The position numbers and the translations under genes are program-made. From Pocillopora verrucosa (Eukaryota; Cnidaria; Anthozoa; Scleractinia; Pocilloporidae), in assembly GCF_036669915.1 (NCBI RefSeq), contig NC_089316.1, forward strand, positions 27,658,169-27,722,168: a stretch of 64,000 nucleotides of DNA, given 5' to 3'. Of this stretch, positions 7,641 to 52,843 are shown one piece after another; the stretch's first letter is position 1; each line of letters begins with the position of its first letter. A model generated the notes under the pieces. The model ran no database searches. It saw nothing but the letters and a program-made list of their open reading frames with translations, and was not told where the DNA came from.

Positions 7641-13999
<6,359 letters not shown>

Positions 14000-14721: not shown

Positions 14722-17700
14722 ATGAAATCGTCAAATAAAGACGATACTTCATCTTCTGAGCAAAGCGACGAGGATGCAGCCGTTTTTATTTATGATCGTA
14801 GAGCTGGCAGCAGGCCGGAAGAGAAGATCCAGTTAGGCGGCATATTCAATTTTAACACTTTCAAAGAAAAGACCCGAGTGGTAAGTTAAAGTTGTTGAAC
14901 TCTTGAAGTTTTTTGAAAGTGTTCTATTGTTGTTGAAAGTCATTTTAATTACAGGTAACCTGTTACTATTTAAAAGATGTAAATTTATTTTACAGGCTTT
15001 CAATATCCCAGAAAACGAAACATTTGTGATAGTGACAACAAATCGACAGGAAATCCTGGATGACAGGACTTATGGTATGGCAACACTAAACATCTTGAAT
15101 GATGATTATGTGTTTCAGAAGTAAATTCAACTTTCTTTTTGAACTCGTTTTTAGAGGAACTTGGTGCCGTTGCATCTTGCTGTAAGATCAATTTTTAAAA
15201 TGTAACCTGACATTTGTTCATACCTCTTTCCGCTAACTTTTGTCATTTGACAGAAGAGTTGGTTGATGGTAATGAAACACTGTATATCTTGACATCGTCC
15301 AACCAAGAACTGAGTGCTCCAACGGAGGAGAAGGTGGAATATATCCCTCATTATGACACTTTGGTCAAAAGTGGCATGTATGAATATTATGCTAGCGAAG
15401 GACAAAACCCATTACGTAAGTATAATCAAATTGTATTATTTAATTAGCAACTGTAGAATATATAAAAAACTCCTTTTCTATTCTTTTAGTCAGGGTTAGG
15501 GAATGACTCTACCTTCAATGCGACTTACATTTTTCTCATAATATCTTTCATAAATGTAATTATTGTTTTTATCAAGTATAATGATAATAATAATGATACT
15601 AACCGCAATAATTTTGATAGTAATGATGATCACAATTATAGTACAGGCAGAGTCCAAACACTGACCCTGACCCTAAGCAATTACTGTTACCTTCGTTGGT
15701 AAAATTGGTTAGGGTCTTGGATAGAGAAAACAATGACAAAAACAATACATTGCCGTTGAGAAAACAGATTTGTTTTACAATAGTATGGGGCTGTGCGGAA
15801 ATTTTACCCCTTAGTTCTTTACAATCTAGCGATCTTTAGCTCATGATTTAAGAATTTCTTTTTTTTGGCCAAATGTGATGAAATGTAAATGTTTTTCTTT
15901 TATATTTTTTTTGTTTTGTCTTTTTATTTGAGAAAAAGACATTGGTAAATGAGTTTGAGATACCAATGGTATTCTGGACTTAATGTGTTGTTTGCTTTTA
16001 TTTCAGCATTTGCCTTTGCTGAACTTGTAGACAATGCTATGGCAGCTACTGCAGAAAATGATGGATCCAGAGAAATTGAAATTAGATTGGTATGGCTTTT
16101 GGCTTCTAGTATGATAATAAAAAATATGTTTTAAAGTTGTCTCAAGTTCCACCATGCTGTACAACTGTGTAATCTTTTTTTATGTTTTTTTTAATTTTCT
16201 ATTTGATTTTAATAGTGATCCTTGCTTGCTTTCATGATGCTTTATTACACAATAAGATGCAAAACCAACACAAATACTAGGTGACTAACATTTTCTGGCA
16301 CCTCAGGCAATTCACTTGTTTTTAATTCATATCATTTCTTGCTTTCACATCAGTGACACACTCAACAGTGCCTCACATGCCCCTTTTATCTTCTTACCAT
16401 ATTTTGATATCATCAGTAATCTATTGGGTAATAGACACACAGCAACTTGGGATGTATTTGTTAATTTCTCACTTTATTTTCTCTTAGAATGGTTTAATGA
16501 TACAGACATGTATTCCCTATACTTTTTTTTCTTTTATAGATGTTTGATGATTCCGTTGGAAAAGCTGTAGTGTGTGTCCTTGATAATGGAGCTGGCATGA
16601 CATCAAAAGAACTCAACAACTGGGCTATTTACAGGCTGTCAAAGTTCAATCGCCAGACTGGAAAGAAGGTGTAAGTGAACAATTCAATACAAAGCTCACT
16701 TCAGTTTCAATCACCAATACCTTTGGATATTGTAACATGAACATTGTAAATCTTTGATATCACAGTGTAGGAGATGTGCCAAGGTCTTTAAACAGTGATA
16801 TTTCTTACTTTGGTGTTGGTGGAAAACAAGCCATATTCTTTATTGGAGATGCCACAAGGGTATGTACTTGATCATTTTACTACAATTTTGTCATTGTTGA
16901 TGTGATAACAGAGATACAAATGTTATGTTAGGCTTAAAATTACTTCATATCTTGGAATGCGTGCAGTGGGTCAGGTCACAACAACTAAACTAAACTAAAC
17001 TAAACCAGGCATTTCTGCAATGATTGCTATGATACCTTGAGATATGAAAGCAAGTTGATTATGTGAAATGTAGTTTCCTAGATAATCAAGGATGATAATT
17101 CTTGTTATTGTTGAATAATTGAAATTAATGCTACTGTTGAATTAGTGCAACTATTGATAAGTGATAATAGGTACTAATGATTTATTTTTTAAAACATTGA
17201 ACTGTACTTTTTCTCTTAAATACACAAGACAACTGTAATCTACATACTTAGCAGTTTCCATCCCATAGACATTTGTTAACAGGTGTTGAAGGTGACTATT
17301 GGTTTGTACTTTCTTGTTACCTCACATCCTCAGGATATAAAAATTTTGTTTTTCAGATGATTACTAAATCCAGAGACTGCAGTGATATTCATGAACTTTG
17401 TATTTCGCAAGCTGAATTTGAGAGAAGAGAAAAAAAGAAACAGTCCATCTATGGGGGAGCCATTCTCAACAGGAGGGTAAGTTAAACAGAAAGAATTCAA
17501 AAGCTCTCATACTGAAAAATGTTAAATTATATCAGTAAAATACTGAAAGAGGACTAACCATTTGCTCTTAAAAGCATGAATTAATATGATATTGTGAAAT
17601 AAAATTCTTGTAGGCTGGAGATCACCAACACATTCCAGAAGATGAAGAAAGTGTGAAGAAATTAGTAGAGGAAGAGGTTCAGAAGGAGAGTTTCACTGCA

Positions 17701-20700
17701 GTAGTTATTACAGGAATAGCTCCAGAACATATTCTTTATTTGAAGACACATTTCAAACAATGGTGCAGACAACTGGCGTAAGTAAAATATTTTAATGGAT
17801 AATTAAATGGTTGGGATATAAGTTATATTTGATTCTACTGCTTTAGCTTGCACAGTTTTCATCTCATGATCACATGGTGAATCTTGTCATGTCTATAATA
17901 TTCTAAAGGCACATATATCACTACTACATTCATGGTCCCCGTGGAAATGAGAAGCCTGTTGGAAGAGGAACCACTGCAAGTCCTTTCAGGAATATTGATA
18001 TTCATGTAAGTTTGTTTGGGAATGTTTCTTATTTTTAACAGTTGCTCTTTTTAAACCATGGTGTTGGACTAAGTAAACCATTTTACTTGAAATACATTTT
18101 AATCTGTTATGAGAGTAACAGATCATTGTTTGACACAGACTGAGATCCTGTAATGGACTGTCTTTTCCAGCCTTGCTCATGTTATTATAACTTGAAATAA
18201 CAAAGTGGAATTAAATCAAAATCCTGTAACCGTGCAAAAGCAAACTGAACAGAAACATACATTGGGTTACAGTTCACTTAATAAAGTTTTAAACTTACTA
18301 TGTTGTTATTTGCATTATGATATAAAAGATGTATTTGTTCAAAAAAATAAATAATACTGAACAATGGAAAAATTTGAAGTTAACATATATTGGAACAAGT
18401 AATTAAGGCTGTTAGAATATAGCAGTTTAGAGGAAGACATTGATCAGAGCTTGATACCATTCATTATAGGTTTCTCTGATTGAAAGAGGTAAACAGGCCA
18501 AGAGAATGCAACTACGAGATATTGATGATGACATGCAGACCCAGTACATAAGGACAGCAGCTTCTGTGTTTGAATTCCGTGCTCGTGCTGAATCAGGAGG
18601 AGTGGTAGAAGGTGTGCTGCGCTATCATCCATTCCTTTATGACAGAGAAACATACCCGACTCTTGAAGGAGAAATTCCAGGTAAAATTTGCCAGTGAAGA
18701 CCCATCAATATTTTGATACCATTATCTTCAGTTGTTTACCTCTAACTGATACCAATATCCCTCTATCAAATTTAAGCTTAGTCTGTATCATTCCCTAAAC
18801 AGTTGTTGACAATGCTGAAGAACTGGCTGATCCATTGGAAAAGGACAGCAGAGCACCCAGAGGAAGCCGTCCAATATTTGAGTGTTACTGGAATGGAAGG
18901 CTCATTCCATATACTAACATTGATGTGTAAGTTTGCCATTAACAATTTGATTAGCTGTCATAAAGTGACAAAGCAGTTACTCTTCTGATGCCTTTATTTT
19001 ATTATCTTGGTTAGTCTTGAATGGTGCCAGCCTCCAAAGAAGTGGACAATTCCCTTGGAATGTTATCACAGGTGAGTATCTTACAAGATTTTATGTTCTC
19101 TAGACTATTTAATGAATTGCAGATTCTAAAACCAAGTATTGAGATCACTGTCATGGTGCTAGGATGTGAAAAAATATCAAGCATACAAATGCAATTGGAA
19201 TACTACTATCATAAAGATTAAAACTTCTGAAATTCAATACAATTTCTTGTTTTTTCTGTTTTGTGTCTGTCTTCAGAATTGTATATTTAGTAATGATCCA
19301 ATCCAAATATCCAAATATTTTAATATTATATAAAACTTAAAAGTTTTCATCAACTTTGCAGATTTTCCGGTTGTTTGTGGACAAATGATGCATTTCAAGT
19401 CAGCACAAACAAACTGACATTTATGGATTTAGAGGTCAAAATTAAAGACAAGAACACCATTTTCAGCAGGGTCATTCTAGGACAGGTATATTATAGATGA
19501 AGTTAAAATAATTTTGATATAATAACAGTCACTTGTTGATGAAATTGTTGCTACATTTCTGTTTTAAGGAGCAAAGAGTCAACATTTCAAGAGCATTTTA
19601 TGATTGGGTCAGAGAATGTCATGAAAATCATGACAAACAGGTACATAAGAAAAGCATCTCTTATTTATTCACATGTTGTTGTTGTTTTTTTAATTTATAT
19701 ATCTTGTTTTAAATCCACTGACCTCTAATTGTTAAATTTAGGTCAAGTTCTTAGGGTTTCAAGGTCAAATAAAACGTCCTGACCTGCCACAGAAGCGAAA
19801 CCAGAGTCCTTGGTGTGTTTTTAATTCTATTGAGTGGGATGGAAAGATCTTTAAAGTTGGACAGCTGGTGAGTACCATGTTAAAGACCTGAATTTTTACA
19901 CAAGAATAAGATATCCCTGCTCATACAGTAACTCTATTTAATGCACTTCCTAACAATAAGAAAGAAACAAATTATGGTTACCATAAAATATACATGTAAT
20001 AAACATGTCCTGCTATCATCACTTGAAAAATTTCAAAAGTGTTTTCATAGATCTGGAGGACACATATTTTACACCAGGTTCTTCCAGACTTTTGTTTGAC
20101 TACTATTGGCTTGTGTTCAGCTCTCCTCCACTGAGAAAAATACCAGGAAGGAGCCACCAAACACAGGCCTTTTTTCAAAAACATAATTTACAATTTGTTC
20201 TTTGTTGTTGTACTCTAGCTACTAGGTACCTTCAGGTCAAAAGGATTTTTCAATGTAATAAAAGTAGGTAGAAAGAATATTTTTCAAATGTTTTTCTTGA
20301 CTAGATAAGGACACAAAGAACACTACCTTTGATTTGTGGGACGGTAAAGAGATTTCTTCTTTTTGGTGATCATGATGGAGATGTATTTGCTACTGGAGGA
20401 GAAATGGAAATAGTGCAGGTTTGTACTGTTTAAATGTTCAATATTGTCATGCTTAATAAAATATGATATGACACTGTCTGTGTTCCTCAACAGGAGCCAG
20501 TTTCTTTGTATGGTGATACCAAGTTCTTCGCACTGGCAAAGCTAGATCGAATGCTGAACCCTGCCTTGATCAAAAAGTTTATTGATGAGGAAGAAGCAAA
20601 GTAAGACTCAAAACAAATAACTCTTCTCTTTACCATGAAAAATTTTACCTGCAACACTTCAAAATCACCATGAGAACTTTTTCACAAACTTCTAGAAAGT

Positions 20701-21857
20701 GCTCTTAACAATGAAGATGAACATTTGATCTGAATTTTGCATGCATTACTTTGATGAAATCTTCACAGTGATGTTCATTGTTTTCTTTGTATCGAAAATC
20801 TGAGGCTCATATTACTTATTCTTTGTGGAATAGAACCTAATCTCTGCTTGGCTGTCCCCCTGGAAAAAACTTTTAGTGTTTATTGGATCTTTGTTGTGTT
20901 ATCCTCAGTGGGCAGATGCAAAATAGTGCTGGAAAAGTGAAGCACTTTGACCATGCAAATTTGGGAAACATATTTAAACCTATGTATCAATCATCTATAG
21001 TTCCCCATCTGAATTTGGCTAAATCTTACTGCCAAGGAATTCTTTGTAGTCCAGCTTTGACAAATAACTCTGTGACCATTAAGTATACAAAATAATTGAC
21101 AGATTTAGAGGTTTCAACAAAATATCTTTCTTGAGCATGTTACTATAAAACTCTGCAACATCTTGACACAATGTTTCATTTAAGGTTACCAAGTAAACTG
21201 GTGTTAGAGTGGCCAGAGAACGACAAACTTGAACCTAACTCTAAAATACCAGCTGGAACCACCATAGGTATGAACATTGTACTGATAACAGAGTGAATCA
21301 TCATAGGTATGAATGCTGCCCTCAGGAAAACATGAATCAGTCATCATGTACCATAATCAATCTCAAGAGAGAATTTTGCTCAAGCAGGGTTTACAATAAT
21401 TTGCTTCCTGCTGAAGTCTTTAAAATTTCTAAAACTTCTCCTAACCCCCCCCCCCCCATTATGCCAAAGAATTTGACTCTAGACACCACCCCTCTATAAG
21501 CTACTTCATACAAGTAGTGTAATGAATTTGTATGTACAACTGTAATGTGCAGTCTACCAACAGCTGTTACTCTAGTTATAACTTGAAAACATAATTTGAT
21601 TAAGAAATATATTTTCTGTGCTTCTAACTGCTCAAACAGTTCTCCAAGAGAAGGTGAAAAAAAGTTACTACTTGAGTTCCGTAAAGGGTAAAAAAAGCTG
21701 ATGTTTTGAGCATCAGCCCTTTGTCAGAGCAATTGACAATCGTTCTGATGAAGGGCTACCACTCAATATGTCAGCTTTTTTTATCCTTTACAGTGGCCAA
21801 TTTACGTTTTCAACTCAGTCGTTTACACTAAATTACCTGCCATACTCTCCCACCAAG

Positions 21858-21893
<36 letters not shown>

Positions 21894-24800
21894 ATTACTT
21901 GAGTATGTCACAATTTCTTGTGTTTTTTTTTATGGTAGAGATATTCAGATCATATGGTGTTTGGAGTATGTTTCTTTTTACAAAATCAGTCTTAATAAGT
22001 CTTTAAACATTTGACCTTTCTGTTTTTTTTTAATGTTTTGAAAATAGTTCAGTCTCTTAGAGAGAGGCCTTCAGCTTTATCCACCTCAAGTGTACAAGTG
22101 CAGTGGTTATGTGTTGGAAATTTTTAAAACACTTTTTTGTCATCATTTGGACAGGTGCTATTAGGGTTGATATTCACAATGGTAGAGGAGAATCAGTCAA
22201 CAAAGTGCCTGGTGACAGGAGAAGATTGTTGGTTGAACTAAAGGTCATCTGGCATGGTATGTTGCTATGCTGAGTGACTGCCTCAAGGTCAGATATATTA
22301 GCTTAACCCTTTAACTCCCATGAATGACCAAGACAGAACTTCTCCTTACAATATAAATACAATATCATGCAGACAAGTGGTGAGAACTAATACAAATATC
22401 AGTCAGGGGATTATTAGTTGATCCAAGACCAAATTAACAAAACTAACATTACAAGACTTGTATAACAGACAGTAAGGAGAATTACTATTGAGATCTTGTG
22501 AGTAAAAGGGTTAAGCTATGATGTCTTGCCAAGTCAAAAAATAGATATATTGTCTTGCTAAGCCACAGATAGAGAAGTACTTTTCATAATATTGGTATGG
22601 TTCTGTAGGGAGACTGAGAGCAAGCTGCCTGGTCCATTTCACTCAAAATTAGTTCTCCTTTTACCTGGCAGTGGGAAACATTGGGCTGTGAGCCTTCTCC
22701 ACTCTGTTTTTTCCTTGCCAGGTCTATCTCATCTTCCAAGGAGATGTTTAGGGCCTTCCAGTATTCATAGGGGTCCTGGAAAACCTGGAAAGTCCTGGAA
22801 CTTTATTTTGACATTTTCCAGGACTAGAAAGTCCAGTAAAAAGACTGCAGGTTCTTAACTCAAGCAATAAAGTTTTCATAGTTTATGTTATTAGAAATGT
22901 GTTAATACTGTAAGTAGAATTGATTTTTTAAATCTTGGGAATGAAAGGTTTTAAGCTGAAATTTGGTGACCTGGAAGAATCAATATGGGTCCTGGAAAAT
23001 TCCTGGAAAATTCTAGGAATAGTACTGGAAAAGTACTAGAAAAGTCCTTAAGATTTGTTACTAAAAAAGGGTATGAACCCTGTTCTTCAACTTTTCAATG
23101 GTCTGCCCCTTTTATGTTCCCTTGCACTGGTTGTTACCATTTTGAAAAAAAAAAGGAGCAAGCAAATAATTATGTGAACAAGACATATCTTTTGTTTTAA
23201 TTATCACTCACAAAATCTTCTTTTGACTCATAGGTAATGACAAAGATGGTGATAAAGTGATAACCAACCATGTCTGCCAACATGGAGGAAAGAACTGGCC
23301 TTACTGGTTCAGAAAAATGGGTACTAACATCTTTTTTTATCTTTATCACTGATTCTAGAGTACAGTATCTCCAGATGTTTAATAACATATCACTAGTAGT
23401 CACTGAAATATCAATTATGATTACTTGTTCTTGCAGAGAATATTACACATTTAGGTCCTCATACTCTCCAACTTCAAGTGTTGTTGGGTGACACTTCAGC
23501 TGGTTCTTCAATCAAGAGTCTTCCTTGTCACCGAATCAAGTTCACTGTAACAGGTGAAGTGGCTCTCTTTCTTCTTTCTTGTTCTCTAACCTGAAGTATA
23601 GCAAGATTAATTGGTTAACCTTTGAACCTAGGAGTTAAAAAACTCCTTAGTGTGTGGCTGCCAGAGTTTAACTCAAAGATATTAGAGCTGGACCTATGCT
23701 TTTAAATTTAAAGAAAAAAGAAATAAGGTTTTGTTTGTATGATTTTGAGAAATATTTTTACTTCTTGAAAATCTTGAAAATGGCCATGCCTTTCTGTGAC
23801 TGCAGTCTCAACTACAACAAAGGCATGTTTGATGGTGTCTTTGTTGGGAACTTAATTGTTAGTTTCTAACATTTGTGAATTGAGCTGTCAGCAATAAACT
23901 ACTGCTTAGGCCAATTAAATGCCTGTCAAGCAATTTGTTTTTGGGTTTTTCCTTTGCTGTAGTAGAATGACAAAGCATGACAAAAGCACTATTTTAGATT
24001 AATTATTGTTTGCAGTTATATTCTCATTCATCTCAGCAGTGCCTTTCCAGCCTTGCCATACCAGCATTTAGTCCAGAATCATATTTCTTTTGCTAACATG
24101 GCTCTTTTGCTTATTAATATTATTGTTTAGAGGCTCACCCAAATAAATTTACAGTTGGAATGTTGGAGACACCTCTTAGAGTTGGAGTACCTTTCCAGGT
24201 ATGGAAACATTTTCGACTAATTTGGTTTCACTCAGGATGAAATTTAATATGGTTGGACATTTTGATCTGGCAGCTGTAACCTTTTTCTAATTACTCTTCT
24301 TTCATACTTAAGATTCCCCTCAATTTGTTGGATGAATTTAATAACCCGTCCAAATTAACAGAGGAGTTGTGTCCAATTTTAAATGCAAGGTAAGAACTTC
24401 TGCTCAACAACATGTCACTGAAACACCATAGTATTCCAAGCTATCATGATTTTGGTTGCAAGGGATGATTAGGAAAAATTTGGCAACTAAATTTGTGGTG
24501 CACAGTAAGTTACCCATTGGCTGTGTTTGGCAGTCATATAGCAAGTTAAAATATCTTGGTAACTTTCTTTGACATGGTCTGAAGTCAAAGGGAAGTCACT
24601 TAAAAGTTTCATTTTCATCAAAAAGTTGCTTCTTCCTCCTTGGCTGCCAAATTGTGAGGCCTTGAGAAGCTGTGTGAGTCTCCAAATCAAATGCCACCCA
24701 TACTGCTCAGTCCTATGATTTACTGTGTGGCTAATGACTTAGTACAAGTTGTAATGATGTATTGGGTGTATTTTTCTAGAGACTTTTGGCAGCCATATCA

Positions 24801-27800
24801 TGATTTAAGGTCACCATATGGCAGCTTTGAAAAAAGGTGAACTTGGAGCCCTGTCAAAGATTCACCATTTTCTGTAGGAAACTTTGATATAGAGATCATC
24901 CTTGATTCTGACAAAAACCTTTTCCCTCTCACCAAACTCCAACTACTTGCTGAATCTCAAGTGTCTTCAGTTTTGACAAAAAATGCCACTAATTGTTTCT
25001 CAAGTTAAGTGGTGTATTCAAGGCTTATTCCAAGCAGGTTTAGATTGTGAGATTGAATTAATTGATGTTGTGATGATGTTTTTCCTATCTGTGGGAATGA
25101 GTTTGTTACTAGCTGGCACTAGCTTCTGGATTAAAAAAAAAAAGAATGGTTAAGTTAACCTTAGTCTTCTCCAGACCAATGGGTAATGTGGTTAAAACAG
25201 AATAGTTTTGTTTGGCAGTGGTCTGGAACTTGCTCATCAAGGGACATCAGTGAAAGGAAACAGCCTGATTGTCAAAGGTGTAATTGCCTTAGGCTCTGTT
25301 CCGTCACATGCAGGCAAGGTGAGAGGTGATTTACATTGTTTTTGCATCAGTTGATGTATCAACAAAGCACCTAACAATTTCTCTCTTTGAATTTCAAACC
25401 TTGCTCAGTTGGCTTGATACATACTGATTTTATGTTTTTCACTGATGAAACTATCTATAGTCCCAAATTTAAGGTGAGCTGTTATCAAAATGCTGTCTGG
25501 CCTACAAAATAATAACTAGATGGAAATAATTTTCTTTCATTATTGATGAAGGACTTCAATCTAAAGATCACCCTGCCGGGTCTTGAAGAAGGTTCACAGA
25601 GCTTGAAAATCAGGTTACTACCAGGTGAATAAATATTTGCTGGATGAGAAGTATAATGAGGAATATGTGGTAGAGATGAATTTGCTTTAGCTCTGATATT
25701 AGTAATGGCCTATGTTACTCAAACCTGTGGTCAGTTATGATATATTTTTCTGCTGCCTTATGTGAATGGAAGGTGGGTGCTTGAGGTGTTCAGAGTCTTT
25801 AGGTTAGGTCAGTAGTAATCCCCAGATAGTATGCCAACACCCAATCCCTGCAACTTGACCACAAGAACCCATTCAAGGCAACTGTTGATGCCGATTAGAT
25901 CTGTGGAAGGAAAAAAGATAGTGGATTGTGTGTTTAAATGCTCGTAAAACAATTTTTACAAAACAGCTTGAGACTGTTGTAAAACAGTGACTGCCAAACA
26001 GCTTGTGAATTATACAATGATGCTAGCTGTAATGGAGGTGCAAAGTTCCATTTGAGAGTGTGCCCTTAAGACTGAAAACCTCATGACAATTTGACTTAAA
26101 ACTGAAATCATGGTTTTCAAGTGGACTTCTTTATTATTTTGTAATTTTTGTTGTTTCCATAAACACTACAGTGGCTATAGTAGTCTGTAATTTCTCAGTT
26201 AGGTGACAGTTGCTAACCAGAGCATTATGTATCGCACAGGTCCTCCTGAATCATTAGTAGTTACTCCTGACAGTGATGACATCACAGTTGAAAACAACAG
26301 CTCTCTTCAGTTGCAAGTGCAAGTCCAAGATAAAGCTGGCAACCTTACAGTTCAGCCTAGACTTAATGTTGTCTGCAAGGTACTATTTTAACCAAATTAT
26401 TAGTTGTGTGTTTCAAACTGTGGTATATAGTTTTTCAAATTTTATACAAAAAATGTAGAAAACATTTCTGATTATGTCTCATATGCCTAAATGTGTACCA
26501 TGCCCACCTTGCTCAAACTTCCAACACAGAATATCTCCATAATTCATGACGTTCAATAGCTTTTGGTGGCTGGTCTTTACTGAAATTTGTATCCTCTATT
26601 GTCTTCTAATGTATGTTTGAGCAGGCTGACCATGCTCCAGTTTTCCATGTAGAAGATTACTTTGTATGATCTTCATGCTTGCTCTGCCAACAGTGTTCAG
26701 AGAAGTGTAACCTTGTTTATGTATCTGGGTAATGTGGTGAAATGATTGAGCTTTTAACAATAGAGGCCCATTGGGAGTGTTCTGAAGTTTCCATACACAA
26801 TTAAAGTATTGACTAATTTGTCTTTTACAACCTCTGTTTCAGCTCACAGGCACACCAGGTCTACCCACATACATTGGAGACTGTAGCTCTTCAGGGAAAG
26901 TAACATTAACAGGTCCTGATATCAGTCTAAAGCAAATCACCAAAAGTTCAAAACTCAAAGCCAAGATTGAGCTACAGGTTTGTTATAATGTTGCATTTCA
27001 GTCTCTTTGAATCAACTACACTACAGTTTTACTTAAACCACTTATAACATTTACATGTTACTAGCATCACAAGGAAGTACCTGCTGTGGAAAAGAATATT
27101 GTGGTGACACCCAGCAGTAAAGCAGCAAAACTGGAAGTGTTTCATGAACCAGTTGATGGCAAACTAAAGAAGAAAGTAGAGGATGGACAAGAGTTGCCAT
27201 GTGTAGTAGGACACATGTTGACTGGATTAAGTATGTACTCTGTTACCATGATCATAGTTTGTTGAGTTAGTCCTATTTTGTGTGAACGAGCCTATGCAAC
27301 ACAATCCTAATCAAAATATATCAAATTTCAGTTATTAATTGCATGAAATGTGTGCTGCTGAAAGTTTTGTCAGGGTCAAAAAGTGGAAATCAGCTACATG
27401 AAGAACACTTCTATAAATACTAACATCATGTGGCAGAAGACTAGAGGCTGAGAACAACTACAGCTGAAATAAGTACAAATTCATTTGGCAAGCATTTCAT
27501 TTTACAAGGCTTGTGATTTATTGTGTTCTTTACACATTGACAGGTTTTAGAATTCTGGATGAAGGTCAGAGAGAGGTAACCATTGACTACTCATTAGCAA
27601 GCAGGTTTAAGGTAGGTGGGAAAAAAGAGCTGGGTGAGGTTGGATTGATTTTGACCAGAGGAATACATGTGTTATTGTCTTGATAATAAATTTGAATCAT
27701 TCAATAATGTTTCTTTGATATATTTGTAGGTGAACTGGACTCCTAAAGTCTCTAAAGATCTCATCAAACAAGGAATTCTTCCAGACATTAAGGTACAGTA

Positions 27801-30800
27801 TCTTTGTTATGAGCAATTAATTATGATTTAATTATGATAAGTTTGGTTTTTCAGAGGTGAAGCTTTTTTACAATATGTTGTGTTCTCTCTGTTCCATGAC
27901 AGGCACCTTTTTCTTGTGATGAACCAAAGTATTGTCAAGTTAGCATGACTGGTGGAGCAGGACTTGAGTTTTCTTTCACAATCAAGTAAGCAGTTTTTAT
28001 AGTTTTTTAGCCACACATTTGTTAAGGGAATGTTTTCTTGTTTCTAAAGTAATTAAGATTCATCTTCAGTGTTCTATTCACAAAATTAAGGGCACAGGCA
28101 AACCATTTTACATGTTGGTCATCTTTTAATGATAAATACCTCTTATTTCTGGTCATACTTTGTCAGACCACTGGCTGATGTGCCAAGCATCCTCAAGTGT
28201 TTATGTGATGAGCCACGCCTCAGATTAGGGGAACCATTATCATCTGATATCATCCTGTCAGCAACTGACAAACATGGCAACAAAACAGGCAAGGTAAGAA
28301 GATTTGTGCAAAGACACTGCAAACCTATCACTACTGGCTCCCTCAAATTCCTTAAGTTGTTTATATCAAGAAGATCCAGTTAAGGACAAAATTAGTGATG
28401 AAGAAATCAATTACATTAGATGATGTAATTTTATTCAATAGATGACCTACCTTGTAGATACCCTTAATTACTGTATTTTAGTTCATACTTTAATTCAAAA
28501 AATTAATTAATTAAATAAATAGAATTATGAGTGTAGTTAATTATTTGATTACACATTTATTTGTAGTTACCAAATAACGTGTTACCAGAGTTCCATGTTT
28601 CCTCAGATGGATTAAAAGAAAGTGAAGTACAATTAGGATTCACTGCTGTAAGTGTCTGTTGGCTTTTATTTTAAGCTCTTATTTAACTGTTATGCCACTT
28701 CAGGCTGTAAAGTCATCAATCTGTTTACACTCTCCTTCATTTTTTTGTGTTACTGGGTGGCTAATTTAATATTAACATTTTTCTGTAGGATGGTAATATA
28801 GTAATCAAGAACATTCAGTTTGAAAATGGCCCCCTTGGACACAGAGAACTGTCCATTACATGGAAGGAAATTAAATGTTATCAAAGAGTTGAGGTAGCTA
28901 CAGTTAAATCAAAACCATTCACATGGGCACCTTTCTTGGGTTTTTTTTTTTAATGCACAGTCATGTAACTAAAAGTTAGATTCAAATAGTTGATTATCAA
29001 AGTAAAGTTCAAACTTTTCTTTATTAGGTATAGTTTCTTTGGAAACATGACATCACTGCCATGGGGAAGATCCAAGACTTTTTGATATCTCTTATAGTTA
29101 TAATTAACTGTGTCTTTTGATTAAAGGGGGTAAGTTTCTAGAGAAACTGAGGTGCTGCTTCAGTGAGGGGGAGTATTAGACAATATAATTTGGTTTTATC
29201 ACCTGAGTTGATAGTGTACATTAGCCACTGGAAAGAGCTTCTAACCTGACATTTTGAGCATTACCCCTTCGTCATTTGCTCTAACCAAGGGCTAACCCTT
29301 GAAACAGCAGCTTAAAAATCTCTACAGTGTCTATACTTTACATTCATCTCAGTTGATGAAGCCAAATTGTTTTGTGTTTTGTGATGTTTGTTTGTTGTGA
29401 TTGCTTTTCACAGGTTACAGCAGGTCCCCCTGCCAGACTCAAGATTCTGGATATTAACCATTCAGAGGTGCTAAGAATTCTTTTAATCTTATATATACTT
29501 TTGTTGTGTTAGAGATGAAAACAAATTAAATTATGTTCCTCTATTAACATTTGTTAAACTGTGATGACGATGTTGTCATTAAAGTCATCCACATGAACCA
29601 TTTACTGTGTCAGGAAAATGCTTGAATTGTTAGCTGTTGATTGGGAAGTCTCTTTCCAAGTTTAAATTATCATAATTTAGCTTTGAAGTCATTTACTAGT
29701 TTTCAATACTGACATTTAAAATTTCAACTTGTCTGTTGTGTATGATTTCATGGCAGCCACTGTCAGTTTATAATGACACTAGAATGCCAGTCCCACTCAA
29801 AGTGCAGTTATGTGATAACCTTGGAAACCCTTCAGATGAGCCCAATGTTAAGGTGGTCCTGAACTGTGACAGAGGACTTAAGGTGAGAATATGAAATAGA
29901 AATGGTTAACACATAGCAACCATGATAATACTTCAACTAAATCCAAATGTAAATGTTTTATTTTTTATTTGTACATAGTTGACTCCAACACCTGCTGTTC
30001 AGAAGACAGATGACAAAGGTCAAGCTTCCTTTGGTCTTCTCACTGTTAGTGCAGTAAGGTATGTGGCACAATGAGACAGACTACTGTGGTCCATTCTTAA
30101 TTTTTCATCACATACAGACATAACATTAAGTGAAAAGAGTAGAACTTGATATAATCCTGCAATATCTAACCCAATGTGAGCCAGGCATTCAGAGTAGGAC
30201 ATCTGTGAGATGAACTGTACTTGACAAATGAATTCTCATGACTTTCTCTTCACAAAATACATCTTGATCATCAATGAAAAATTAACGTTTGTTCTTCAGG
30301 GGGATGTATGGAATACGAATCAAAGCTCTCTTGGGAAGAACAGCTTTAGATGCACCAACAGTGAATATTAGGTAAGTTAAGCCCAAAGGAAGTGATTCAA
30401 TCTTGTTTGTATCAGTTTTTTGATGTACTTTGTTATTTTTCCTTTTTTTTTGATTCAGAGTGGAGCCAGACCCATCCAAAGCTGTTAAACTCACTGTGAC
30501 ATTTGACTCCAAAGCTCCATGTGTGGTTGGAGAACTGTTACCAGGTTAGTTATGAACCTATTTCTTCGAAATAGAGTTTTGATCTTTATTTATCTTAATT
30601 TTCCTTTCTAAATTTATAACTGTTAGGTCTTCTAGTTTTTTAAACTTAAGAATGGTAATGAAGGTGTGCATTTGTTCTTTCAGTTGTTTCAGCTCATGTT
30701 GTAGGAGAGGATGAAGCTGTTATGAAAGCAGCAAGTGCTAAAGATATTGTTTTGAAGATTTGGCACACAAAGGATGGTCCAGTATCTGACAAACCCCCAC

Positions 30801-33800
30801 CTCGGGTAAGATGGTCTAAGTACTTCTACGAGAATTAGTTATGTGCTGTGGAGGGCTCTTTCAAAGACATTTGAAACTCAAGAAAAAGGTCATCATGACA
30901 GAGGATTTTTTGGTTATTTTAACAGGTCCGGGAAGTTTGGGATAGGTCAACTTTGTGTTATTTGGGTTATTGCATGATCCTGTTTATTCTCCTTCAGTTG
31001 TATTGATAATTTTTATTTTCAAGGCTACAACTTTGTATCCATCAAAAAGAAAAAACTCAGATAAAGAAGGCGAATTCTACTTCAGGTTTGTTTTTTGCTC
31101 AAGTTAAGTGGTTTTATTTGACACATTTTACATCCGTTTTCCTCAGTGCTTTTATGAGAGGTTTGCAATGCACTTTAATCATTCTTACATCACTGACCAT
31201 GTCTGTGTTGATCCTGTAGAGACCTGAAGGTGCCTGATGTGTCTGGACCATATTGTATGGTGATACAGTTTGGATCAGTAGGAGTTGTCACCCTCTCAAG
31301 TAAACCAGTAAGTGGATGTACTATTTTGTGGAACATAAATTGTGATGAGGATTCAAATTTAAGCCAGAATTTTATACAAACAATGGCATGTCACTTTCAC
31401 TTTCTGGTTAAAATAAACAACTCTGTAAAGTAGGGTGATAATGCATCATATATTTACAGATCACGTTTACAGCAATGCCTGGTCAGCCTGTGAAACTTGA
31501 ACCAGAATCCATTCCAGCAACACCAACTGTTTCCAACACTCAGAGGACTAACAGCCGAACACTGGTGAAGACACTCAAATTACAGCTTAAGGTAAGCTTC
31601 ATGAACTTTTCCCTTGCTATCATTTGTATGAGTTTTATTCAAAAATAATTTCAATTGCATTTTGGATTGAATAAGAGAGGATAACTTTTCCATTGACTGA
31701 GTCCTAATTATAATTCTAAATGGCACTATAAAAACATATAGTTATCTTTTTTATAATATCTATTGAAATTCAACTTTGTGCTTTCAATTTTAACTTTCTG
31801 CACTGGTTAAAATTATTTGATAAGCTCAAATCCTATGATCCCATGTCTGCATTTACTTCATTAGATCTGTTTGCACCAAGTGTCTAGTTTGTTTTAGGAT
31901 CATCTCATGATATTTGAGTTGATCTTATATTATGCTGGAAATCAGTTTAAAATGGCTGCTTTAAACTTGATGGGCTTGAGTTTGTTTTTTTTTTAGTTTT
32001 GTTGGAGTTTGGCTTTTAAGTATTTTTCTGAAGGATAACACTACATTATTAAATGCACAACCAAAAATTACCATGCTGTACATGGAGGATGATTGCCTTC
32101 TGATACTAAATTGTTCATGTTAAAGTGCTCTTAACATTGTTTTCAGGACAAATTTGATAACCTAACTGGTGAGAATATCCGGGGTAAAGTTGTTATTACA
32201 GTGAGCACTCCATCTGAAGGCATCGACGAGATCCCTGCCCTAGCTGGGAATGTGTACCGCATGGAAGTACCCCTCCTCAAGGGCACAGCCAATGTCCAGA
32301 ACTTACTTATACAAGAAAACACTGCAGGCAAAGATGGACAAGAATACCTGCTTAACTTTGAGACTCAGATCCCAGCTAATGCCTCTCCTCATCCTATTCC
32401 ACCATTTACTCTTGCTTTCTTGTTTTACAATGGTGAGTTCTTTCTAGTCTGCATTGTGTGAAGTTATTAGAATTTGAAACAACTGTTGTCTTTCTCTGGC
32501 AAGGAAACATTTGAGTTAGTTTGCCCATTCTTGAATTTTATTTGGTTACCTTTAGTGAGTGTGTTGTACTCAAAGTGTTGAAGATCCAAATTAAAGGGAA
32601 CTTTTTGTTATGTTGTATTATATTTTGAAGATGTCAGGAAACAACAGCAAATGGCTCAGCTGACAAAAGAGAGAGATCACTTATTTGAAACAATTCGAAC
32701 TTACCGTCTTCTGTTTGAAACTACACGGCAACTTATCAATGAGATGCAAGGTTAGAATTAGTTGGATTTGGTTAATGGTCCATTTATAGATTTTTATATC
32801 CAGGTGTTAACAATGGTCTATTATGTTGATAATTTAGAGTATTTTATATTAATTTTTTATATGTATATACACTAAAAATAGCATTTCAAATTCAGTTTCA
32901 GTACATGAAGCATCCTTACATGAACAAAAGATTAGAGGAGAACTTAGAAAGCAGAACATTCCAGCCAGTACCTTGGCAACAGTGAGAGAAAAGACCCTTC
33001 TCTTCTTGCATTTAAATTTTGTTTTGTTAAATTTGGCTCCATGCCTTCTGTTCCCTCATGGAAACTTAATCGCATTGATTAATAATTATATTTGTGTGTT
33101 TTTAGCCTGCAGCTGTGACGTCAGCTATAAATGATTTCTCCAGGAAGCGAGATCAGATTGCCAGCACTCCGCGGAGACAATGTCTTTTACATCCAGGACC
33201 ACGAGGAGACTCAGGCATCCTGGGAAAGGTTTGTTGAACTGGGAAATAACATACTTTTGAGACTGTAATCTTACACCTTTGTGATATCTATGGTTTGACT
33301 TTCACTTCAACATGTTCATAAGAGAAAATCTTTGCTAGACCTTCTTTTGTCACTGACTTGAAATCAGGATGGTTGTTGGTTCCTCAGTAACAGCGCAGTT
33401 TGTGTGATAAACAAGAAAGGGTTCTATTTAGCAGAAGGTTTGGTTACAATTTAGTACTGTGCCCCCCTATACAGGTTGCTCATTTAGCAGAAGGTTTTGT
33501 TACGATTTAGTATTGTGCTCCCCTCTACAGGTCGCTTATTTAGCAGAAGGTTAGGTTACAATTTAGTACTGTGTCCCCCTATACAGGTTGTTCATTTAGC
33601 AGAAGGTTTGGTTACAATTTAGTACTGTGTCCCCCTATACAGGTTGTTCATTTAGCAGAAGGTTTGGTTACAATTTAGTACTGTGTCCCCCTATACAGGT
33701 TGCTCATTTAGCAGAAGGTTTTGTTACAATTTAGTACTGTGTCCCCCTATACAGGTTGCTCATTTAGCAGAAGGTTTTGTTACAATTTAGTACTGTGTCC

Positions 33801-36316
33801 CCCTATACAGGTTGCTCATTTAGCAGAAGGTTTTGTTACGATTTAGTACTGTGTCCCCCTCAACAGGTCATTTATTTAGCAGAAGTTTTTGTTACAATTT
33901 ATTACTGTGCCCCCCTCTACAGGTCGCTCATTTAGCTCAAGTAGTGGATGATGATGTAGCACGGGTTTTGTCATGGCACATGGCTTCTGATATGGACTGT
34001 GTTGTCACTCTTACCACTGAAAAGGTTTGTTCAACTCAAACTGCAATAAAGGTGTTAAACATTTGTTATCTGGCTCTTCCAAAGCAATCGAACCTCAAAG
34101 TGCATTAGTCAGAAGCTTCACCACTACTGAGCAAGTGATAACCAGTTGTTAAAGGCAAGGTTCATAATTATTTGTCTGACTCATTATATATTGCAAGGAT
34201 CAGCAATGTTGAATCAGTCTTGTTTGAAGATAGAGTAAGCAACTTGGTGCTTCAAGAAAAGAAAGATATCTCATAGAGTCTACGTCCTAGTTGGAAAAAA
34301 TAGCAACTTGAAATACACATCATCAATATACTGTATGTTGAATTTGCTGTAAGTTGTACAAATTGTTGATTAGCGCACGATATCTCTAGCTTGTAACTGT
34401 ATGGACTGTTTCAGGCCAAGCAAGTGTATCGTGATTCAAATGGTCAGCAGCAGGTTCTTCCCTTAGATTCCATATTCAGACGAAGTTTACCAGAATGGAA
34501 CAGGTGAGCTACAGCTTCAACGCTTAATATGATTTTTTATCGTTTACCAGTCACTTATCTTCATTGCTTATTCTGTGATCACTGGTTTTCTTACAGACCG
34601 CTGCCACATGTACGAGGTTCAAATAACTACACTCCCACAGGGAACCCAGTTTATGCTCGAGATATGCTGCTATTCCCTGCAGAAGGAGACAACTGCAAAC
34701 TCGGTAAACAAGGACACCTAGTAACAGTGTTTAATCATTTAAAAATAGAAAAATTATATTAATGGCAACTGAGGGTTCCTCTTAACGTCTCTGCTCATGA
34801 ATACAGCACTACGAGTTTAATTGGAAAATGTTATTTGCTCATTTTTCGTAAGCCATTCTCCCTTTACTATGAAATAAATGTATGTGATGATAGTTGTATT
34901 TTGAGGAAAACTGCTAGAAAGTTAAAACCTCTGAATTCACAAATGGAGGTGCCCTCAGTTGAAGTAACTCTTTTACCTTCTAGTGTTTGGTATGCTGCTT
35001 GGCGACACTTTGATCCTCGATGATCTGGATTGTGCAAATAAATACAGACAGGAGGTGAGTAGCATGGGAGATGTGTGCAGTGCTAACACTTTAAGTTAAC
35101 TCTAACTCTTTTCTTACTGTTTACATCATTGTATGGAAGGTTGTGAAGTACACTCACTGTCCAACAATTTTGACGAGGAGTGGGGATCGTATCAGGAGTA
35201 ACGGTAAGCTACAGCTACTAGACAGAATATACCAATTAAAGTAGTGATCTAACCCCAACCCTAAGCTTACCTCCAAGTAAAGCAAAGGATTTTTTCATAC
35301 AACGTCATGTTACTAGAAAATTTTCATCCGTTGAGTAGCTGTTCTCTGATCTGTTGCCAAATACAGCTCTTTAGCACAAGAGTAAAGTGGTAAGTTTGTA
35401 AAGTACTGTGGTGCTGCGTCGGTGGGAGAGTATAGCAGGTAATTTAGTGTTAACAACTGAGTTGAAAACGTAAATTAGCCGCCGTAAAGGGTAAAAAAGC
35501 TGACGTTTCGAGCGTTAGCCCTTCGTCAGAGCGATAGATTAGATTAGGCTAAGAAAAGACTATTGACAACTTTGTCTTCTTTGTTTAGGGAAGTTTGGTG
35601 GTCTTCAGAATAAAGCTCCTCCGTTAGAGAGAATGCGTGGCGCTGTATTTGCTGCACCACTTCCCCTTGCTTTTCATTCATTTACAACACAAATCGGTGA
35701 GTAATTCTGGGCAGGTTAGTCATTTGTTTAATATCTTAGGTGAGAAAGGAATGCCCACTACCCAACACTTTCATGTGGTGTGTTATTTTGTATGCTTGCA
35801 GAACAACTACAGCAATTTAAACAAGCCGTTCTGAAACATGCTCAAGCCAAAGAGGAACTTTCCGTAAGTTTGGTACACGTCGTAAAAAGGGTATTCGCCT
35901 CGTATGATTCCTGTGCTAGCAGCAGTGCTAATACAAATTTAATTTTGTTACCATAGCTACAGCTACAGCACGGACAAACTGAGGAGATGAAAGTCAAGCA
36001 TCGCGAGTGTAGAGAGGCAGAAACTCAACTGCGCATGATTGAAGAGCGCCTTGGTATGACACCAACACAGTATAATATGCCTCCAAGTCCTGCCACTATG
36101 TTACTCACAGAGCTCAGCACACCACCAGCAAGGACTGCTACATCTCGTCGCGCAGGCGCGCGAGCTGCAGCAGCTGCCTCTGCGTCTCCAACTTTGTTGA
36201 ATTCAGTTGTAAATGGAACAAATAACACCTCTGCAAATACGAGTTCTCCGCGAACAAGACGAGGCGCTCCCGTTGCTACCGAAGACATCCGTTTCAGTAA
36301 GCGGACACGGCGATGA
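14722..36316 (+). CDS. SMCHD1: SMCHD1 (SMC flexible hinge domain-containing ATPase), complete, 55 exons, 2032 aa
   Basis: SMCHD1 is a non-canonical SMC protein of chromatin; in mammals it acts in gene silencing. Every exon-exon phase agrees and the total is 2032 codons plus stop (human 2005 aa). The order is an N-terminal ubiquitin-like region, a GHKL ATPase, a long middle of beta-sandwich repeats, a coiled coil, an SMC hinge and a basic C-terminal tail. Exons 1-17: 14722-14880, 14996-15074, 15254-15415, 16007-16089, 16540-16670, 16766-16859, 17357-17476, 17614-17777, 17909-18005, 18470-18680, 18803-18926, 19015-19071, 19362-19485, 19569-19640, 19742-19867, 20305-20418, 20494-20600. The remaining exons are listed under the middle and hinge entries. 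The start is the first in-frame ATG after the promoter; the reading frame is open upstream back to at least 14701. Confidence 0.96.
15254..18005 (+). other. SMCHD1: SMCHD1 GHKL ATPase domain (exons 3-9)
   Basis: The ATP-binding motifs of the GHKL fold are intact. The block [20 protein letters not shown] precedes [11 protein letters not shown] (catalytic Glu at about residue 139; human E147), then DNGAGM (176-181) and FGVGGKQA (220-227). Next come FTAVVITG and [10 protein letters not shown] from the transducer-like part. The sequence therefore predicts an active ATPase rather than a dead relic. Confidence 0.92.
15698..15808 (-). mobile_element. MITE family C copy 1 (GGTAAAATT...AAATTTTACC), hAT-like
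   Basis: 111 bp in an SMCHD1 intron, in reverse orientation to the copy at 41228-41364. It shares the terminal string TATGGGGCTGTGCGGAAATT and an internal block. The flanks CCTTCGTT (15690-15697) and CCTTAGTT (15809-15816) match at 7 of 8 bases, consistent with an old 8-bp target duplication. Confidence 0.75.
21650..21895. mobile_element. MITE family A copy in an SMCHD1 intron
   Basis: Long hairpin: a left arm with CCGTAAAGGGTAAAAAAAGC and a mirror arm with GCTTTTTTTATCCTTTACAG, then GTTTTCAACTCAGTCG, and an outer end with AGTTTCTTTAGAAACTTACC. No open frame. Confidence 0.75.
22303..22514 (-). mobile_element. MITE family B copy 2
   Basis: The reverse-oriented relative of 3165-3376, with TTAACCCTTTAACTCCCA at one end and AAAAGGGTTAA at the other. 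It lies in an SMCHD1 intron. Confidence 0.7.
22770..23060 (+). repeat. Low-complexity CTGGAAAA/GTCCTGG-rich repeat
   Basis: Many imperfect copies of GTCCTGGAAAA and related strings on both sides of a 100-bp gap, inside an SMCHD1 intron. It looks like a degenerate tandem or interspersed repeat. An open frame across it is incidental. Confidence 0.5.
29121..29370. mobile_element. MITE family A copy in an SMCHD1 intron
   Basis: Starts AAAGGGGGTAAGTTTCTAGA and continues with the family's GGTGCTGC, TTTTGAGCATTACCCCTTCG and TCAGTTGATG blocks. More diverged than the copies at 35400 and 57784. Confidence 0.65.
33426..33922 (+). repeat. 56-bp minisatellite built from the exon 48 acceptor of SMCHD1
   Basis: Acceptor-like ACAG/GT boundaries end at 33474, 33530, 33586, 33642, 33698, 33754, 33810, 33866 and 33922, an exact 56-bp period. 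The last one is the real exon 48 acceptor. Each earlier unit carries a pyrimidine tract (CCCCCTATACAG or CCCCTCTACAG) and then a copy of the exon start, GT(T/C)GCTCATTTAGC, in most units. Past that the unit diverges from the exon and reaches an in-frame TAG after about 11 codons. Confidence 0.95.
35400..35550. mobile_element. MITE family A copy in an SMCHD1 intron
   Basis: Contains GTGGTGCTGCGTCGGTGGGA, AACAACTGAGTTGAAAACG, then AAAAAGCTGACGTTTCGAGC and GTTAGCCCTTCGTCAGAGCG. It appears to be one arm of the hairpin element, truncated on the right. Confidence 0.7.
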
Positions 36317-38817: not shown

Positions 38818-40166
38818 TCACTTGTCTTTGCTGATCCCATATTTTTCTCGCATCTTTTCTAGCTCTTGCTTCTTCTTTTCCTTGTCCAGTTTTTGGAAAG
38901 CCTATGAGGCAAAATAATTTCAAAGATTGGTTTAACATAGTGGGATGGTTTGGTTTGGGAATTGACCTACCGGTATTTGTCAGTGTCTAAAGGATTATTC
39001 ATTTTAAGAAATTTAGTGTATTTAAAGTTCTTTTAACATAGTGGGATGGTTTGGTTTGGGAATTGACCTACCGGTATTTGTCAGTGTCTAAAGGATTATT
39101 CATTTTAAGAAATTTAGTGTATTTAAAGTTCTTTTTCAGTAAGGTGCACTGACCTTTGTGGACTGGTAGTAAAGAACAACTAGATAACGGTTGCACACAT
39201 TGAAGCCTGATAGGTGGTCGCATGCATTTTTGGCATCAAAAATATCCTCATATACAACAAATGCTGTTCCTCTTGTCTCAGGTGTATTTCCACTAAGAGA
39301 GAGAAGAGAAAAAATGATAAAGTACACATCCAAAACAAGACAACTTCTACACAAGCAACAGCCTGTTTAATACTCTGATCAATCAACTTTTTATTCATAC
39401 AAACAACTTATTTCTTGGATCAGAAAATAGTAGGTTACTTACACTCTGATCTGTCTGATTCCTCCATATTTTCCAAATATATCATACATCTCCTCTGTTG
39501 TTATCTTGTAAGGAAGATTCCTGGGATAAAATACACAAGGTTATGAGTTGATCACCTTCTCAAACTAATTTCATAACACTTCCTGTGGCAGTAGTAAGAA
39601 AAGGAGTGACAAAAAAGGGACACAAACACACCATGAATTGTCATTCCCTGTGTTGAAAGAATCTTCTGGGTATAAGTCTGATAACTGAATTTTTATATAG
39701 CAATTAAACATTAAACAGAGTAATTCTTCTAATTAAACTTAAAAGATTTCTTTTCCACCACTTCGTAGCTACAATTCTGTTGCAAGTGGGTAAGGCTACA
39801 TGGATTCATCAGATAATGGAGGCAGATTTAATCAATTGTCCATAAATCATTATATTACCTGACATAAAGGATTCTGTTCACTTCCGGAGGTAATCGAACC
39901 TTAAAGAGAGGAAAATCTTGTGAGAAACTTGTTTCCTCGTGAATGATACAGCTAGAATAAAATACTTAAATGACAAATGTAATTCACATATCCCAAACAA
40001 CAAGCTTTACAGAAAAGGATTTAATTTGAGAGAGACCCAATGATGGAAAAAGTAGAATTAAATGAATAAGTCAGTAACAGAGAAAATCTTTTCCAGATTC
40101 AAATGAAAGTAAGCCATAATATGAAGTTCAACTCACATTGGCCTTCCTTTGATTCTGCAGCGCCAT
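38818..40166 (-). CDS. SF3B6: SF3B6 (SF3b14/p14), U2 snRNP branch-point protein, complete, 123 aa
   Basis: SF3B6 is the small RRM protein of the SF3b complex that sits at the branch-point adenosine in the U2 snRNP. Minus-strand exons: 40137-40166, 39859-39899, 39443-39520, 39154-39292, 38818-38901. All phases agree and the total is 123 codons plus TGA (human 125 aa). The RRM shows RNP2 (ILYVRNLP) and RNP1 ([10 protein letters not shown]), followed by the conserved block [20 protein letters not shown]. The C-terminus is a basic helix ([17 protein letters not shown]), as in the family. The start codon lies in a YY1/TISU-like context (CCAAGATGGCGC). Confidence 0.96.
38932..39135 (+). repeat. 101-bp tandem duplication in the last SF3B6 intron
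   Basis: Two almost identical 101-bp units (both starting near AACATAGTGGGATGG, at 38934 and 39035) end just before the donor of exon 4 on the minus strand. The near-identity suggests a recent event. Confidence 0.9.
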
Positions 40167-49700: not shown

Positions 49701-50446
49701 AATAGGATGTTCCACCTTACAATGGATTTGGATCACTTGAAGACAGCTTACAGTCTTGCCTGTCACTTGTACCTCAGCCTCCTAAAAAAGATTTCATCAA
49801 GATGCTGGAAAATGATCACAAAGTGCTGCGATATGCTGCAACAATGGTAATTCGCCTTTCAAAGAATTCAAAGTTATCTCCCCCCCCCTCCCCTCCCAGC
49901 ATGTTTAGTGAATTGTTTGTCACAATGACTTACAAACTTAAACAACAAACTATCTACTTATTTTATTGACTTTAACAACTCACTTAATATTCATTTTTTC
50001 TCTCAGGAAAGCTTCAGACCTGAAGACAAAAACAGGCGTTTTATCATTTACTACCGCTTGGCTGATGATATGTTGACAATCTATGAACCTCCAGTCAGAA
50101 ATGCTGGTATAATTGGTGGAAAATTCCTTGAACGAACTCATGCCACCAAACCAGGTTCATCTGTTGATAATCCTGAGTTCTACACCCCAGCTGACTTTCA
50201 GATTGGAGCTTTGATACAGATCTTCAAGCACCGCTTCAGAATAACTGATGCTGATGAGTATGTATTAAAATATTTAGAATCACATGCTCGAATTTATCCC
50301 ATCGATACCATCAACTCCATCAGAGAAAAGCATGGCAGACCACCCACCACCACAGAGGAGCTGGTGGCATCTGTTCCACAAGGAGATACTGACCCAAACT
50401 TACAGAAAAGACAACCAAGTGGAACAAAAACAGAGTATCAAAGAAG
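46742..50446 (+). CDS. EFHC1: EFHC1-like ciliary microtubule protein (three DM10 domains), 3' end not found
   Basis: EFHC proteins are inner proteins of ciliary doublet microtubules. Exons 46742-46786, 46887-47245, 47530-47680, 48263-48475, 48608-48737, 49160-49380, 49706-49846 and 50007-50446 join in phase and give about 566 residues. The order is an N-terminal LPFLPG...KFHRSQTLG motif, then three DM10 repeats with landmarks [29 protein letters not shown] and [15 protein letters not shown], each followed by a GKLIKR- or GGKFLERT-like block and a YDCD or HDCDEFT box. The human protein (640 aa) ends in an EF-hand. No such exon is visible before CLK. The last exon stops at donor GTACTT (50447); reading through gives a hydrophobic tail ending at TGA 50493-50495. 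Confidence 0.88.
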
Positions 50447-52843
50447 GTACTTACAATACTGGCTGTTGTACCAGTTTTGTTTTCAGTTTTTGTGATGATA
50501 ATAATATACATAAAAAAATTATGCACTTCTTATTAGCTGAAAACTAGTGCATTTTTCATGTAACACTAGTGCAAAGTTGAAACACAAGTGCAAATTACAA
50601 AAAGCAAGCACTTGTTGCAAAATTTTGTCCACACTTAGAAATAAGAACTTGTAAATTTTTCAAAGACTAAAAATTGTACTTTCCCTATGGGCTTGTGCAA
50701 TTTTGTCATCTCTAAAAATAAACTTGTGTTTATTAACTCCAAATTGCACTCTTATCATATTGTTACCTATACTTGTATCTGTAAATTTTGAGTGACTTAA
50801 TGGACATCAAAAATGTCGCAACTTTCTAACATTGCTTCATAATTATTCTTCCTAGGTTTTGTGAGGGATAAACTTAAATGTTAACACAACACAAGATGGA
50901 AAACATCAAGACTACTTTCAAGTGCAAATTTTGTAAATTTTAAATTTATTTGTATCATTGACTTTCATTGTCAGAACTTCAGTCAATCTTCTTCATATAG
51001 ACCAAATAAACAGTCATTATGATCACAAATATTGTTCATAATATTTCAGATTTTTGTTCTTTGACCTGTGTTATTTTTTAGGTATATGTAGTTAAGGTTT
51101 GATATCATTACCTTAACACTAAATGCTTAGAGAATCTCGTACAACAGGCTGTAAGTATTGCATCAAAGTTAAGAAACTAAGACATAGATTGAGTGCATCT
51201 AATAGGTTGAATAAAGACATTGTCTGTTTTCAAGTGGAGAACAACTCATTTTCTTACTTCCTTCAGGGTCTTGCCACCACACCACAACTTAGCTCTAAAA
51301 CTAGCAAATGTTTGCAAAATAATCTTACTCTCCTTTCTCAAAGAAAGGGGGAGGGGGAAAGAGAGACCATACAGCAGAATTGTGGAAATTAAGTCTACCC
51401 ACAGTTCTATTTGACAAAAAGTACATATCCTTATCTAGATTTTTTCTTATACACCTGTGGTATTTTGTCTCCAAACATCTGTAATTCTGCTTGTACTTGG
51501 CTTGGTGACAAATGATTCATTCACCCACATCCTTCTCTTTGCATTTGTTGTTAAACGTAGTTACCATGTCCATCAATTTCATGTTGCTGGTTTTCATTGT
51601 TAAAGTATCTTTATCATCTATTTGAAAAATAAAATTCTTTAAGTTTCATTACTGATCATGTCAAAACATCTAAAGTTATTGGATAAACTTTTTATTCAAA
51701 TTTCTTGTGATTTGGCTTATTTGCAACATACACATGAGATTCATTACTTTACAGTTATGATAGGTCAAACTGCCTTGTTCCACTCACCAAGGATAAACCT
51801 TGATTACCTGTTCCTTAAATTACATCACAATTAATGTTTATGAACAACATAGTAGCTTACTAATACACTGGAGCACAATGTATGCTGGGCAGTTCCCTAT
51901 TTTTTACACAGACTTAGAGAAAAATAACCTTGAGGTTTGCTCATGCTGGGGAGGAGGACATAGAACTATCACCATTAAATTTGTTACTTCAAGGAGAAAT
52001 TCACACACTGGGGGCCTCAATAAATCTCCCTAAAACATCACCATGAATATCATTAATTTAAACTGCCCGGCTGTTGTGCAGAGGTAACCAATAAAGGGAT
52101 TTAAGAAAAAAAAAGCAGTTGATGTCAGAATAGCCATGGAACAAGATAACAAGGCAGTCACTAGAAGGTGGCCATTTGACTTTTAATCAGGTTTGCCGAA
52201 GTTATGGGAAGGTAAACAAATGTTACTCACTAAAGACAACATCAACAACTGGTTCTGATCCATCATTCTTGAAATTTGATATGACCTGGCATTTAGGATT
52301 GGAGTCTATCATTCTTCGACATGAAACTCTTAAAAGGAAGTCTCTAAAAATTAAAAAACAGTCAAGTGTGTTACTGATAGGCTGAAAGTGAATTTTGAGC
52401 CAAGCTACGTAGCATCAGCTGCACAAGTATTCACAACTTTTTAAAGAGAGTGACGTGCAAAAAGCCAATCCCAGTAGATATGTACCAAGATTATTCCTCT
52501 GGTAATTTGTTTTGAAACATCATGGTGTAAATAAAAAATACCACGTGAAAAAAACATTTTCACAGAAATATCAACAAATTTAAAAATTAAATTATTTGCG
52601 TCTGTTTTGAATGGTATCTATCACTAAAAAAGGTTCAACCTCTCGTGTTTTATCTTACAAGCAGAATATAATGCGAGAGGTTGAACGATCTCTAAGTTGT
52701 GTGAGTATAACGTTACATTCAGGTTGTAGCAATGAATTTTGTCAAAAGGGTGTAATTACCTTGCTGTCGCCGTTTTTGGGTCAAAAGGGCAAAACGAAAC
52801 AGTTACTCTAGCAACATGTTTTAGGGAAGCACCTCTGATGGCC
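50447..52843. other. Stretch after EFHC1 with no recognised coding exon
   Basis: I looked for an EF-hand exon that would complete EFHC1 and found none. Only a weak 21-nt exon-like piece (52191-52211, between ATCAG and GTAAAC) fits the phase. The rest is AT-rich intron-like or intergenic sequence. Confidence 0.45.

Follow-up and report, generated by a model that had tools for sequence, protein, structure and literature searches.

The 3' end of the intron that precedes a hinge-domain exon of SMCHD1, together with the first 7–14 nt of that exon, is present as nine tandem copies of a 56 bp unit (33426..33936, forward strand) in the window, by which is meant the whole 64,000 nt stretch of DNA that was analysed. 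This array is probably a minisatellite of the 'mirage' kind, in which an exon-intron boundary has been duplicated in tandem, with the authentic copy normally used and no regulatory role needed, and it is most likely neutral. Tandem-repeat detection reports a period of 56, 9.1 copies, 92% matches and 0% indels. The earlier note had described nine acceptor boundaries exactly 56 bp apart, of which the last alone opens the full exon, and this is indeed the case: the boundaries run from 33474 to 33922, the copy-to-copy spacing is constant across the array at 56, and the exon (33923–34024) follows the final copy. The AGs of the eight decoy acceptors (span 33473..33866, forward strand) end at 33474, 33530, 33586, 33642, 33698, 33754, 33810, and 33866, which makes 33475, 33531, 33587, 33643, 33699, 33755, 33811, and 33867 the first exon-side bases of the decoys and 33923 that of the authentic site. 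Seven nt of each unit are certainly derived from the exon, while the next seven, ATTTAGC, are present at both edges of the array, at the left, intronic edge (33426..33432, forward strand) and at the right, exonic edge (33930..33936, forward strand).

In a tblastn search with a human query, the gene is collinear with human SMCHD1 over about 15–36 kb of the window, and similarity traces it over 14969..36133 on the forward strand, with the first exon further upstream. GT-AG introns were resolved at 47 of the 49 junctions between 50 anchors; their splice sites were picked using a generic consensus term, which favours consensus-like sites, and the model omits at least the first exon. The hinge exon (33923..34024, forward strand, with its acceptor AG at 33921–33922), called exon 48 in the earlier note, is anchor 45 of the 50. 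It matches PDB 6n64 (E 1.7e-11), the match opening at the boundary with IAHLAQ, and the exon upstream of the array (33106..33228, forward strand) ends in the donor AAG/GTTTGT after 33228, so that both the hinge-domain exon after the array and the upstream donor at 33228 are where they had been placed from the letters alone. With the hinge exon and the collinear upstream exons both found, the gene is identified on sequence similarity as the SMCHD1 orthologue. The hinge-exon protein finds a single match in its own 353 Mb assembly. The donor regions before the array (33225–33240) and after the exon (34021–34036) are identical at 15 of 16 nt, AAAGGTTTGTTGAACT and AAAGGTTTGTTCAACT, possibly by chance. 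No relatives were found in the genomic and viral contig collections searched with the neighbouring exon (32147–32431).

The acceptors were scored over −20..+3 with a matrix built from the other 46 introns of the SMCHD1 gene. The authentic site scores 5.34, and the decoys score 4.20, 7.22 (33531), 5.03 (five copies), and 3.19. The decoys thus fall within the range of real acceptors, and the one at 33531 exceeds the authentic site and scores higher than 31 of the 46 other introns. CAG at the acceptor is retained in all eight decoys. On its own the matrix discriminates poorly, since 11% of the 688 non-splice AGs within the introns reach 5.03 and 9% reach 5.34.

It is in the sequence 5' of the acceptor that the copies are set apart. 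The AG-free stretch is 35 nt in the authentic copy, which reads TTTAT, versus 18 nt in each of the eight decoys, which carry an extra AG in TTTAG; in the 46 other introns the median is 39.5 nt. The best AG-free branch-point score, from a generic rather than a fitted matrix, is 3.53 for the authentic copy (17 of 46 introns lower) and 0.73 for every decoy (4 of 46 lower). Splicing is described as favouring the first AG 3' of the branch point, and AGs that arise anew in that zone as frequently leading to mis-splicing (PMC7317903, PMC1431707). The exon-adjacent copy would normally be spliced, as the sole copy to have both 35 nt free of AG and a branch-point candidate that could be used, and these two features may plausibly explain its use; the decoys would be bypassed, or rarely used as noise and then degraded. 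Against a bypass stand the overlap of the decoy scores with those of real sites and the fact that 6 of the 46 real introns are likewise AG-free for 18 nt or less. When AGs are ignored, the best decoy branch-point score, for GTTAC at −29, is 2.84, near the authentic 3.53. The distance from this GTTAC candidate to TTTAG is only about 8 nt. Since AGs less than 12–15 nt from a branch point are described as being open to bypass (PMC1431707), the decoys may have lost strength without being inactive.

Use of any decoy is predicted to truncate the protein, as had been claimed, all eight leading to a premature stop. The earlier note had each decoy carrying VAHLA and reaching a stop within about 11 codons. 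The first part stands for four decoys (33475, 33699, 33755, 33811), while the other four read VAYLA, VVHLA, VVHLA, and VIYLA; the second stands for seven, with 7 codons ahead of the stop in decoy 33531 and 11 in six others, and fails for 33867, which has 22. As the frame is truncated in every case and at least five more introns lie downstream of the hinge exon in the model, decay of decoy-spliced mRNA is a fair prediction. The early stops, the CAG kept throughout and decoy scores that go as high as that of the authentic site or higher would suit a set of poison acceptors that tune SMCHD1, with a regulated or copy-number-dependent share of the transcripts using a decoy and then being degraded. 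This seems very unlikely, given that the decoys have neither an AG-free stretch nor a branch-point candidate like those of the authentic copy and that normal splicing is reported for described boundary arrays, as far as these sources go (PMC3087553, PMC3902484). No positive support for a tuning of SMCHD1 level emerged from the analysis. It is also highly doubtful that the array acts as a copy-number dial, in which competing acceptors would divert SMCHD1 transcripts to decay and an authentic site cleaned of AG and donor motifs would keep the balance; if it did, natural variation in array length would tune a chromatin silencer.

Only two positions set the authentic copy apart from every one of the eight decoys. 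At 33902 (forward strand) it has a private T where the decoys have the G of TTTAG, which leaves them 18 AG-free nt in place of 35, and at 33886 (forward strand) it has a private T where the G of the eight decoy units makes a donor-like AAG/GT. Both of the authentic-specific bases do away with a splice motif, whichever the direction of change, and with n = 2 this carries no statistical test. That each of the two positions removes a splice motif is what would be expected if the decoys were slightly harmful noise, taking a few per cent or more of the transcripts without regulation, with the authentic copy selected to stay the strongest. The noise would come chiefly from acceptor 33531, either alone or as a possible 19 nt pseudo-exon (33531..33549, forward strand), the inclusion of which would move the reading frame onto a stop codon. 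Besides the 7.22 of its acceptor, this pseudo-exon has after 33549 a donor-like AAG/GTTAGG that scores 8.18, above 26 of the 46 other introns. A 19 nt exon is usually hard to define, the branch-point context of 33531 is as weak as that of the other decoys, and two unpolarised changes give no test; such a cost is possible, if rather improbable. The array offers a natural experiment on the choice that the spliceosome makes among nine near-identical acceptors, the two distinguishing positions both lying in splice motifs.

Returning to the array as a normally spliced minisatellite, the copies appear to have been homogenised unevenly. Copies 1 and 3–7 have a mean pairwise difference of 1.73 of 56, copies 6 and 7 being identical; they stand 6.00 away from the authentic copy, 8.00 from copy 2, and 7.67 from copy 8. 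The low divergence among copies 1 and 3–7, set against 6.00 from the authentic copy, would suggest that one unit type has spread without taking in the exon-adjacent copy. Divergence in copies 8 and 9 is what edge copies might show, but the left-edge copy 1 is homogenised with the rest and the inner copy 2 is divergent, which goes against a simple exclusion of the edges. The single-copy ancestor may have had two ATTTAGC motifs 56 bp apart, the upstream one in the intron and the other in the exon. Unequal exchange or slippage between the two would have duplicated the last 42–49 nt of the intron with 7–14 nt of the exon, and later exchange would have spread one unit type through the array.

Chance does not come near to explaining an array of nine copies, but it may explain an array edge at a splice site. 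Of 200,000 random 56 bp segments drawn from the SMCHD1 gene body, 7.8% contain a complete 3' splice site core (−20 to +3) and 18.7% contain a 3' or a 5' splice site, and the location of the repeat at a boundary therefore needs no selection. An origin of the array from a dispersed repeat is not supported: used as a query, it has a single match in its own 353 Mb assembly, in a search that skips very common words.

There is a second boundary array in the window, at an STT3 exon (9762–9646, minus strand; E 1.5e-22 to STT3A). An 88 bp repeat (9530–9715) covers the end of the exon and its donor, and the array as a whole, with the exon, spans 9483..9762 on the minus strand. The first donor, which follows 9646, is taken to be the authentic one because read-through past it reaches a stop after nine codons; GT is kept in one of the two decoy donors, being lost after 9558 and retained after 9483 (GTATGT). 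Two boundary arrays in one 64 kb window, one at an acceptor and one at a donor, would make a genome-wide count worthwhile. In a survey of 262 kb including the window, 20 arrays have a period of 15 or more and a score of 150 or more. Four of these are in the window, two of them spanning an exon-intron boundary, and 16 are outside it, of which one was inspected (in L009), with no exon recognised there. This L009 array (8832–8927) is a 30 bp repeat of 3.2 copies, the unit end of which, CTCGTTTCAG, is acceptor-like, and by eye an inverted repeat adjoins it. Of the other two in the window, one consists of two identical 101 bp copies (38931–39135, minus strand) inside a short intron (38902–39153) of a gene matching SF3b p14/SF3B6, and their 100% identity suggests that they were duplicated very recently or are an artefact of assembly. 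The other, a 28 bp minisatellite of 68 copies with 97% match (59137–61045), lies upstream of an open frame whose match to protein kinases is weak and falls short of the Pfam threshold. The window also contains a hedgehog-type Hint module (6765–7256; PF01079, E 1.8e-24) and a DM10 domain (49929–50495; PF06565, E 7.7e-29), the gene of which is presumably EFHC1-like.

The mitochondrial contig C30 (L022–L026; 66,319 bases) bears on the identity of the host. Units of about 17.4 kb follow one another head to tail in it, with COX1 recurring at spacings of 17,407 and 17,411; such a concatemer probably reflects faulty assembly of a circular genome. The COX1 match has 10 TGA codons and is open under code 4 over 519 residues. 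ARAGORN finds only tRNA-Met in its standard mode, and eight candidates, including Met and two Trp(tca), in its permissive mitochondrial mode. Met and Trp are named as the one or two tRNAs of cnidarian mitochondria, the genomes of which are described as larger in anthozoans than in medusozoans (PMC10261974). Judged by these features, the host would fit a cnidarian, probably an anthozoan, and not a lancelet.

The closest comparison for the SMCHD1 array is with the mirages of lancelets, the original report of which is said to be that of Canestro et al. 2002. Mirages are minisatellite-like tandem duplications of exon-intron boundaries, described in lancelet Adh3 and in the globins BflGb6 and BflGb9 (PMC3087553), and also in TnC and PGBD5 (PMC3902484). 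As in these, the units here lie head to tail across a boundary, BflGb6 likewise repeating the end of an intron with the start of an exon, and the AG and GT signals are kept in many units, as CAG is in the decoys here (PMC3087553). The 56 bp period is inside the 10–72 bp cited in connection with the Adh3 mirage, and the likeness among copies 1 and 3–7, with the authentic copy apart, recalls BflGb6, where the inner units are homogenised and the cluster edges are not (PMC3087553). Going by RT-PCR, splicing at the lancelet mirages seems undisturbed; their length varies among haplotypes, and they have been proposed to contribute to the gain of introns (PMC3087553, PMC3902484). In the SMCHD1 array, a decoy that was becoming, or already was, a regular new exon boundary would be a first step of such intron or exon gain, on the model put forward for lancelets (PMC3087553), and the units do carry an acceptor, with a donor-like AAG/GTTTGG or GTTAGG in several copies. 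The early stop in every decoy frame and the 37 nt between successive units, which is less than the 75 nt of the shortest of the 47 introns, make this extremely improbable. The same gap rules out a chain of micro-exons in which 19 nt pieces are joined from unit to unit, and recursive splicing at AG/GTTGCT was set aside by eye, unscored.

The array differs from the lancelet mirages in that its host is a cnidarian and that the AG-free stretch is cut short by an AG in each decoy. In IFI6/G1P3, a minisatellite is reported, in a study said to have appeared in Nucleic Acids Res in 1995 (23:1854), to carry multiple splice donors. There too a minisatellite at a splice boundary would multiply splice sites, but these are donors, by the title provided to the transcript, and here they are acceptors. 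In human genes within segmental duplications, variable internal tandem repeats occur at exon-intron boundaries, and these resemble the present case in having minisatellite units at boundaries (PMC2812944). The human units are about 30 bp on average, with altered transcripts and new introns described in recent paralogues (PMC2812944), unlike the SMCHD1 exon, which has one match in the assembly. Among the matches listed in literature searches that were partly directed at corals and cnidarians there is no boundary minisatellite from a cnidarian, a weak absence given that subscription papers were mostly outside their scope. In the literature compared, boundary minisatellites are named in lancelets, and the SMCHD1 array extends them to a cnidarian.
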